Source: Natronomonas salsuginis (GTDB taxonomy: Archaea > Halobacteriota > Halobacteria > Halobacteriales > Haloarculaceae). Taken from it: 64,000 nt of DNA. Made by a program: the position numbers and the translations under genes. This document shows, one piece after another, positions 45,323-62,629 of this stretch (position 1 is the stretch's first letter; every line of letters begins with the position of its first letter). The notes below the pieces were generated by a model. That model was given only the letters and a program-made list of their open reading frames with translations. It made no database searches and was not told the DNA's origin. Location: positions 1 to 64,000 of the forward strand of contig NZ_QKNX01000001.1 of NCBI RefSeq assembly GCF_005239135.1. The letters run 5' to 3'.

Positions 45323-45349
45323 GGCGATCATCGAGTGCGCTATTGACCG

Positions 45350-46177
45350 TCACCGAGCCGGGATGTCGAACCGGTCGGTCATCCACAGCCCGTATCCGAA
45401 GGCGGCGGCCAACGCCACTGGAACCCAGTTCCCGAAGTAGGCGTTGACGACGCCCCACAGGATGACGAAACTGACGAGATCGTCGAGCATGAACCGACAG
45501 CGATCGAGTCGCGCGAAGACTGCCTTGCGATCGAAGCTGGCGTCCAACACCGTCACCGCGACCGTCGCCGACAGGATCCAACCGGCGTAGTTCATCCAGG
45601 GAACGCCGTAGTAGCTCCCGCCGCCGTCGTACGCCCAAAAGCCGAGGGAGACGGCCGCGGGGTCGAGCGCAAGGTCCATGCCGACCACCGCGAGGACGAC
45701 GATCGGGACGCGAACGAGCGCCCGGCGGGCGCGTCCACCCAACAGCAACAGACACAGTAGATACGCGTTCACGACGAGCGGCAGGAAAAACAGCGGTAAC
45801 GCCGCCGGAACGTGCCCGCCGATCATCGGCCCGAGATCGATACCGTACTCGAACGAGCCGTACGGGTATCCGGTGAACACCCCGACGAACTCGATCGCGT
45901 AGGTGTACGCACAGAGGATGACGACCCCTGCCGCGGCCTTTCTGGTGAGAAGCGGTGCGACGCCGGCGACGAGCGGCAGTCGCATCACGGCGATCCCGAA
46001 GAGCAGCAGGTACGGGTTGAATCGTAGCGGCTCGGGGAAAAGCGCCTCCGCGGAGGCGAGAAGCGCCACCGCGCCGATCGCTGGAAAGACGACGGCGATG
46101 GTGAACCGGTTCTCCGTGACGATCCCGTCGAGGTGTCGTTCGAGGCGGCCCCTCGCCGGTAACTCGACGCTAGCCAT
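45350..46177 (-). CDS. cruF: Bisanhydrobacterioruberin hydratase (C-2',3' hydratase)
   Basis: 275 aa membrane protein, about seven spans, matching haloarchaeal CruF. Adds water to the C50 carotenoid in the last step to bacterioruberin. Marks: YTYAIEFVGVFTGYPYGSFE, YGIDLGPMIGGHVPAALPLF, GMDLALDPAAVSLGFWAYDG (acidic residues in the membrane), and SYYGVPWMNYAGWILSATVA. It overlaps lyeJ by 8 bp, indicating coupled translation. Confidence 0.9.
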   Translation of the reverse strand: MASVELPARGRLERHLDGIVTENRFTIAVVFPAIGAVALLASAEALFPEPLRFNPYLLLFGIAVMRLPLVAGVAPLLTRKAAAGVVILCAYTYAIEFVGVFTGYPYGSFEYGIDLGPMIGGHVPAALPLFFLPLVVNAYLLCLLLLGGRARRALVRVPIVVLAVVGMDLALDPAAVSLGFWAYDGGGSYYGVPWMNYAGWILSATVAVTVLDASFDRKAVFARLDRCRFMLDDLVSFVILWGVVNAYFGNWVPVALAAAFGYGLWMTDRFDIPAR

Positions 46178-62226: not shown

Positions 62227-62267
62227 CCGACAGATCTTATACGGTGTCGGCGACAATCTCGTGACGT

Positions 62268-62349
62268 GGTGGGATGGCAGAGTGGACTATTGCGTCTGCC
62301 TTGAAAGCAGATGGCGCAAGCCTCCTGGGTTCGAATCCCAGTCCCACCG
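62268..62349 (+). tRNA. tRNA-Ser (TGA)
   Basis: Acceptor GGTGGGA (62268-62274) pairs with TCCCACC (62342-62348), discriminator G62349. Anticodon stem TCTGC/GCAGA, loop CTTGAAA, anticodon TGA. Long class II variable arm (TGGCGCAAGCC) and T arm CTGGG TTCGAAT CCCAG. No intron. It is followed directly by tandem repeats of its own 3' end. Confidence 0.95.
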
Positions 62350-62546
62350 TTGCTGTCTCGTTAGTTGTGGATTCGAGCCCTGAGAGTCGCAGCCCCGAGC
62401 GAAGCGAGGGGATCGTCTCTCTCCGGTTCGAATCCCAGTCCCACCGTCGCTGTCTCGTTAGCTGTGGATTCGAGCCCTGAGAGTCGCAGCCCCCGAGCGA
62501 AGCGAGGGGGATCGTCTCTCTCCGGTTCGAATCCCAGTCCCACCGT
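62328..62546 (+). repeat. Three tandem copies of the tRNA-Ser 3' end in two ~98-bp units
   Basis: A 23-bp sequence equal to the T-arm and 3' acceptor half of tRNA-Ser occurs at 62328-62350 (inside the tRNA), 62425-62447 and 62524-62546. The intervening DNA (about 74-76 bp) is nearly identical in the two units. Each unit includes a hairpin of Cs and Gs around GAGCGAAGCGA; unit 1 has 4+4, unit 2 has 5+5, a compensating change. The arrangement is that of attachment-site duplications left at a tRNA by integration and excision, or of a repeated RNA element. Confidence 0.8.
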
Positions 62547-62629
62547 CTCTCGACGTACGGCTGACGTACCACGGCCACAAATCGGCCCCCGGCACGGACT
62601 TTATCACCGCTGAATCCGTACTATCGGCC

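Follow-up and report, generated by a model that had tools for sequence, protein, structure and literature searches.

Why does the 3' end of a tRNA-Ser gene occur three times in a row in the genome of Natronomonas salsuginis? In the window, that is, the whole stretch of 64,000 nucleotides that we analysed, the sequence GGTTCGAATCCCAGTCCCACCG (nt 52-73 of tRNA-Ser) lies inside the gene at 62328-62349 and is found twice more downstream, first at 62425-62446, 97 nt further on, and then at 62524-62545, after another 99 nt. The initial annotation had reported repeats of the tRNA-Ser 3' end starting at 62328, 62425 and 62524 with the same spacings, and this is confirmed, with an exact repeat of 22 nt and a T after it. 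Chance cannot account for two perfect 22-mers in the same register with a further 70 nt or so of identity at their flanks.

Two tandem units behind tRNA-Ser(TGA)

We divided the locus into the tRNA gene and two units, each consisting of a spacer, a hairpin (HP2) and a tail:

62267-62350, + strand: tRNA-Ser(TGA) gene (ARAGORN; Rfam RF00005, 58.7 bits at 62268-62349)
62328-62349, + strand: the copied segment, nt 52-73 of tRNA-Ser(TGA), inside the tRNA gene
62350-62367, + strand: short spacer of unit 1 at the position of hairpin HP1, 18 nt, degenerate here
62368-62437, + strand: hairpin HP2 of unit 1 (model R1, E = 4.0e-20, 84.3 bits; fold), made of the left arm TGGATTCGAGCC (inverted T-arm copy), the family core and a right arm that is the T-arm copy
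62425-62446, + strand: tail of unit 1, the first copy of tRNA nt 52-73, exact match
62447-62464, + strand: spacer of unit 2 at the HP1 position
62465-62536, + strand: hairpin HP2 of unit 2 (model R1, E = 6.4e-23, 93.9 bits)
62524-62545, + strand: tail of unit 2, the second copy of tRNA nt 52-73, exact match

The two units (97 and 99 nt) are 97-98% identical to each other, and the tail of unit 1 overlaps the right arm of its HP2. Since GGATTCGAGCC at the left end of the unit pairs with GGTTCGAATCC, the T-arm copy at its end (fold, z = -3.9), each whole unit folds on itself into one long imperfect hairpin. In this fold, the T-arm of the tRNA is present on both sides of HP2 in the window's units, inverted on the left and direct on the right, and the two copies clamp the hairpin. 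The inner stem reads CCCCGAGCGAAGCGAGGGG in unit 1 and CCCCCGAGCGAAGCGAGGGGG in unit 2, such that one C and its partner G have been gained. The earlier remark that the hairpin had gained a C on one side and a G on the other is therefore correct, and the hairpin is larger than was noted at the time.

A BLAST search of the 219-nt stretch against the own genome gave no second match. Using a structural model of HP2 (R1, see below), we find about a dozen related units in this genome, nearly all of them at other tRNA genes (13 matches with E < 0.001). A count of the word GAGCGAAGCGAG against its mirror was uninformative as a control, since this word is its own mirror image. In a search of Rfam at the tRNA-Ser locus, the tRNA was the sole significant family. 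We note that open frames cross the tRNA and the units on both strands, at 62237-62578 (-) and 62274-62613 (+); one minus-strand frame through the units has, for example, 113 aa, and automatic annotation could call such frames genes. We also note that ARAGORN reports a tRNA-Pro at 45349-45443 (-) of the window, which is missing from the Rfam tRNA list of the genome and is probably a false call.

A haloarchaeal family of hairpin units

Are these units a peculiarity of one assembly? When the tRNA and its units were used as a BLAST query, 88 haloarchaeal relatives out of 97 gave matches. A part of these matches is due to the tRNA alone, and many others cover the unit only and lie at tRNA-Leu, -Arg, -Val, -Gly, -Gln and other tRNAs. 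The same search gave further matches to the 5' half of tRNA-Ser. For example, a duplicate of this 5' half is seen about 1-4 kb 5' of the intact gene at two loci (L006 and L007, in genomes G005 and G043), where the start of an integrase-like gene, as we read it, is close to the 5' end of tRNA-Ser.

We built an alignment (A1) and a covariance model (R1) from 26 HP2 cores, which were picked by their likeness to the unit in the window, with rarer subtypes being under-sampled. In the alignment, 93.6% of the cells are paired on the named structure. There are 67 cells with double changes, compared with a mean of 21.4 after shuffling and 26 for the best slid version of the structure. In the inner helices we see exchanges between GC, CG, AU and UA at one and the same pair. 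The suggestion that the hairpin is maintained as a structure is thus borne out by covariation. The covariation fits a structured RNA and fits equally well a DNA hairpin or the correction of a palindrome, and the content of G-U or G-T pairs is not decisive.

The R1 model finds matches in 55 of 58 near-complete haloarchaeal genomes (the own genome included), with up to 33 matches per genome. In an even draw of the phylum, 17 of 18 Halobacteriales genomes were positive and none of the 82 others; within the phylum, the family is restricted to Halobacteriales. Examples of genomes that have no units are G042, G065, G066 and G174. Furthermore, a search of 84,980 species genomes with an exact core pattern matched 28 stretches, all haloarchaeal, one of them in Natronomonas aquatica. 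This census of the genomes rests on searches. Had the units been unique to this assembly, they would, according to the initial annotation, have been an artefact or a plain local duplication; they are found clade-wide. The proposed search of haloarchaeal genomes and plasmids thus shows units that are widespread in genomes, with a single plasmid match on the Natronorubrum bangense megaplasmid. As read by eye, this unit lies directly 3' of a tRNA-Gly and rebuilds the 3' end of its own tRNA-Gly. Neither phages nor viral contigs had a unit match in scans with exact consensus patterns, which are hence not exhaustive.

Next, we asked where the units lie. In three genomes, 49 of the 73 R1 matches are on the same strand as, and 3' of, a tRNA detected by Rfam, and several other matches adjoin tRNAs that Rfam has missed. 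The units that are linked to a tRNA are always on its strand and on its 3' side, the distance from the tRNA to the start of the first unit being mostly 19-91 nt. At least one unit is present at 8 of 40, 15 of 43 and 20 of 42 tRNA genes in the three genomes (20-48%), and the set of tRNAs that bear units varies among genomes.

Two observations concern copies elsewhere. In one genome (G080), the HP2 core occurs without the T-arm arms at about a dozen non-tRNA places (L150-L157, L160, L163, L164), nested in other large palindromic intergenic repeats; at these core-only sites, copies of upstream DNA are not above shuffles. In another genome (L168, G022:C1:693217-693291) a unit is found 3' of a gene that reads as aspartyl-tRNA synthetase, and its tail can be aligned by eye with the 3' end of that gene at about 25 of 31 positions, which is one weak case.

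To describe what is copied from the tRNA, we analysed 106 units from 44 genomes and 27 tRNA types. The tail is 84-100% identical to the local tRNA at every position of nt 52-73, and at most of the variable positions its identity to other tRNAs is 24-51%. Outside of this block the identity falls to 28% at nt 51, 53% at nt 74 and 33% at nt 75. Because nt 52-56 are nearly universal in tRNAs, the left boundary can be placed somewhere in nt 52-57. The segment nt 63-73 is exact in 70 of the 106 units, and for 89 of the 106 the local tRNA is the strict best match over all other tRNA types. Hence the tRNA 3' end, which had been proposed as the anchor of the repeats, is indeed rebuilt from nt 52-73 of the local tRNA.

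The left arm of HP2 is in turn complementary to the local tRNA (95% at nt 57, others 48%; 67% at nt 63, others 39%), as in tRNA-His, where GAGAATCGAACC goes with GGTTCGATTCTCG, or tRNA-Lys(CTT), where GCGATTTGCACC goes with GGTTCAAATCGCG. The arms of HP2 are local to each tRNA, and the inner core is common to the family. In the typical order, HP1 is nearest to the tRNA, followed by HP2 and by the direct copy of nt 52-73, the first part of which is the right arm of HP2. The whole unit is about 100-160 nt long and has no gene inside. In most relatives HP1, which usually precedes HP2, is a hairpin of 30-50 nt, often with the tip GCGAAC..GTGAGC. We considered HP1 as a part of one mobile piece and rejected this, as HP1 does not travel together with the HP2 core in pairs of units that share a core across different tRNAs. 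In these pairs, every unit retains the tail of its own tRNA.

Gain and loss of units and their possible role in the host

The reading that we favour, with a probability of about one half, is that the units in the window are a tandem pair from a haloarchaea-wide family of small non-coding cassettes that are anchored at tRNA 3' ends. Potentially, a cassette would enter by recombination at the T-arm, at nt 52-57, which form a natural dyad. We propose this site because attachment sites of the T-loop type (PMC8371274) share two features with the copied block, the dyad in the T-arm and a limit precisely at the tRNA 3' end. With entry at the T-arm, the tRNA would stay intact and the distal end of the cassette would be marked by the 22-bp tail. 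The local tail is harder to explain, since an ordinary integrase would carry in the donor's acceptor strand. Such a tail requires gene conversion or copying of the target, the latter either as a long duplication of the target or through a switch of templates on the palindrome. As the units are non-autonomous (no gene, about 100-160 nt), any enzyme would have to act in trans. Either selection acting on the hairpin or correction of the palindrome through template switching could maintain the complementarity of the arms, and some units may persist in the tRNA trailer as parts under constraint. Against mobile cassettes we count that no candidate for an enzyme mobilising the units was found and no movement was seen, that HP1 does not accompany the HP2 core across tRNAs, that hardly any units are found on plasmids, phages and viral contigs, and that at Arg(CCT) the unit is strongly conserved (see below).

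Gain and loss of whole units can be seen directly. In two pairs of genomes (G093 and G067, G020 and G053) the tRNA-Ser arrays differ by whole units, the upstream DNA being about 95-98% identical, and the boundaries of these differences are the 22-nt tail. Since several types of HP2 are mixed in the G093 array, it resembles a row of cassettes and not a simple tandem repeat. Recombination between identical tails may lengthen and shorten the arrays, and it is also the probable origin of the second copy in the window. Two successive integration or excision events, one of the readings in the initial annotation, are not supported: one unit duplicated between identical 22-bp tails explains the tRNA-Ser locus best, and such whole-unit differences are seen directly in the other species pairs. 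In two further genomes (G003 and G019), with the same gene downstream, tRNA-Ser seems by eye to be followed by remnants of units only. We had considered such 'empty' loci of the same genus as clean empty sites, and rejected them as they appear to carry decayed remnants.

Does the same family spread within a genome? The nearest core belongs to another tRNA of the same genome for 10.8 of the 106 units (shuffles 2.9, maximum 8.5), and to the same tRNA of another genome for 19 (shuffles 7.7, maximum 18). As both counts are above the shuffles, descent and within-genome spreading or gene conversion both act. The earlier idea of a small hopping element comes closest to what we see, as far as a structured unit with a rebuilt tRNA end is concerned. 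Hopping itself is not proved by the excess likeness of units at different tRNAs of one genome, to which gene conversion could contribute.

The main rival is that the units are a functional RNA of the host, i.e. trailer elements of the tRNA (for processing, termination or as a decoy T-arm) that are under selection, and that their spread is due to vertical descent and gene conversion in polyploid cells. We regard this as rather unlikely to be the explanation on its own; it is compatible with cassettes, and the two do not exclude each other. The covariation in the core and the constant placement of tRNA-linked units on the strand and 3' side of the tRNA speak for it, as does the likeness of units at the same tRNA across genomes (19 against 7.7). 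The strongest case of constraint is a single locus, Arg(CCT) in the genomes G001, G009 and G015: of the sites in the 111-nt unit, 0.9% are variable, and the unit is as conserved as the tRNA (1.3%), compared with 11-15% in the coding flanks and 25% in the downstream intergenic region. This argues for a host function at that locus. Moreover, among 77 arrays, 8 have a run of five T behind the last tail and 1 has such a run before the unit, a placement which hints that the units may be transcribed together with the tRNA. On the other hand, the tRNAs that bear units differ among genomes (20-48% of the tRNA genes in three genomes), close species gain or lose whole units, orthologous loci seem to decay, and G080 has core-only copies away from tRNAs. 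An exact copy of the acceptor strand is, furthermore, of no evident need to a trailer hairpin. In sum, the anatomy of the units and their distribution are shown, and what we say on the mechanism of insertion and on a host function is inferred.

Relation to integrative elements and other known systems

Alternatively, the units could be remnants of ordinary integrative elements that target tRNAs, the tail being the duplicate of the attachment site left after integration and internal deletion or excision. Such remnants would account for a T-loop-type block of identity that stops exactly at the tRNA 3' end. They are also suggested by two loci at tRNA-Phe. In G080 (L166, G080:C1:2713400-2714600) an integrase gene adjoins a displaced 3' fragment of tRNA-Phe, which is followed by a unit. 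In the own genome, at L129 (G000:C8, 6263-10191), a 114-nt repeat (97%) consisting of the tRNA-Phe end, a unit and its tail flanks 3.7 kb, which is possibly cargo lodged between two copies of the unit. Both loci also speak for the cassettes, as a link to integration. But scars of different elements would not have one structured core behind 27 tRNA types, nor would a left arm in them be complementary to the T-arm of the local tRNA, and the units contain neither an integrase nor any other gene. We find remnants improbable, already weakened as they are by the covariation, the left arm and the sharing of the core. The initial annotation had likewise held that units of this size are not a typical prophage scar; with about 100-160 nt, no integrase inside and a core common to 27 tRNA types, we agree.

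Some details of these loci may be added. The 3.7 kb in the own genome encode an MMR_HSR1-type GTPase, a weak DUF697 match and an ATPase_2/DUF234 protein, and no integrase was seen among these genes. In the tRNA-Phe fragment at L166, two further small hairpins are inserted in the T-arm, immediately before nt 52. A 3.6-kb stretch of G080 (L199) was considered as a second composite and rejected, as its tRNA is Arg(TCG), without a link to the tail of the unit.

A plain local tandem duplication or an assembly artefact is very improbable and as a full explanation refuted. The 97-98% identity of the window's units would point to it, and the second copy itself most likely arose by tandem duplication. 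But units with this core and a rebuilt tRNA end also occur singly, behind tRNAs that are unrelated, in dozens of assemblies made independently, some of which are genomes in a single contig. The tails follow the local tRNA in 106 units, and slippage cannot make an inverted left arm or a common core.

How do the cassettes compare with systems that are already known? Our search of the literature, which did not extend to subscription journals and supplements, found no description of this family. In Escherichia coli, the tyrT (rtT) repeats are tandem repeats of about 178 bp located 3' of tRNA-Tyr, and 19 bp of the tRNA 3' end recur in every one of them. They are the closest analogue, as both are tandem, lie directly 3' of a tRNA gene and contain a copy of the tRNA 3' end in each unit. 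The rtT repeats are known from one tRNA of enterobacteria, whereas the haloarchaeal units are found at 27 tRNA types across an order. The latter also have a shared hairpin core and an inverted T-arm copy, and the sole Rfam match at the locus is the tRNA.

Elements with a tyrosine integrase of the T-loop class (PMC8371274) have, like the units, a duplicate of the 3' part of a tRNA, a limit at its 3' end and a dyad in the T-arm. However, these elements carry their integrase inside, for which the units (about 100-160 nt) are too small, and we see an integrase beside one unit locus only. They are specific to one tRNA target, whereas one family of cores with local tails stands behind 27 tRNA types, and in the units the left arm is the complement of the T-arm of the local tRNA. 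REP and MITE sequences are likewise short, non-coding, palindromic and present in many copies per genome, but have their own fixed terminal inverted repeats, whereas the arms of the units follow the local tRNA and the units are fixed at tRNA 3' ends. Membership in the integrative elements, the rtT repeats or the MITE/REP sequences in each case fails or stays open on a defining feature.

The direct repeat of 22 nt would fit the long target duplication of a casposon-type insertion, which a Cas1-type integrase makes at a tRNA 3' end, but the HP1 insert is not shared in pairs across tRNAs. By analogy only, the arrays resemble those of integrons (attC hairpins) and CRISPR in that mixed units are parted by an identical short repeat, and integron attC sites in their imperfect hairpins with a variable tip. 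The units differ from both, with no cassette genes, no link to an integron integrase or to Cas found, and a repeat that is the 3' end of the tRNA itself. The partial-tRNA remnants of H. gibbonsii may be such units seen singly.

Could the cassettes be a new class of genetic unit? Its members would be folded hairpin cassettes that take the template for both termini from the tRNA gene which they join in the host: one terminus would be the T-arm in inverted orientation, and the other would repeat nt 52-73 directly. We put this forward tentatively, as possible but less than probable. If it were true, one family would colonise many tRNA genes without breaking them, and the repeat of its arrays would be the tRNA's own 3' end.

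If our reading of the units is right, about a fifth to half of the tRNA genes in three haloarchaeal genomes carry a structured 3' appendage. Such appendages appear to be undescribed and have probably been passed over as 'partial tRNA' remnants. They bear on the question of why tRNA 3' ends are hotspots of integration, on the way in which a non-autonomous element can exploit many tRNAs and yet leave them functional, and on a possible function of tRNA trailers in haloarchaea. Furthermore, the gain and loss of whole units at defined 22-bp tails in culturable archaea would offer a testable system.
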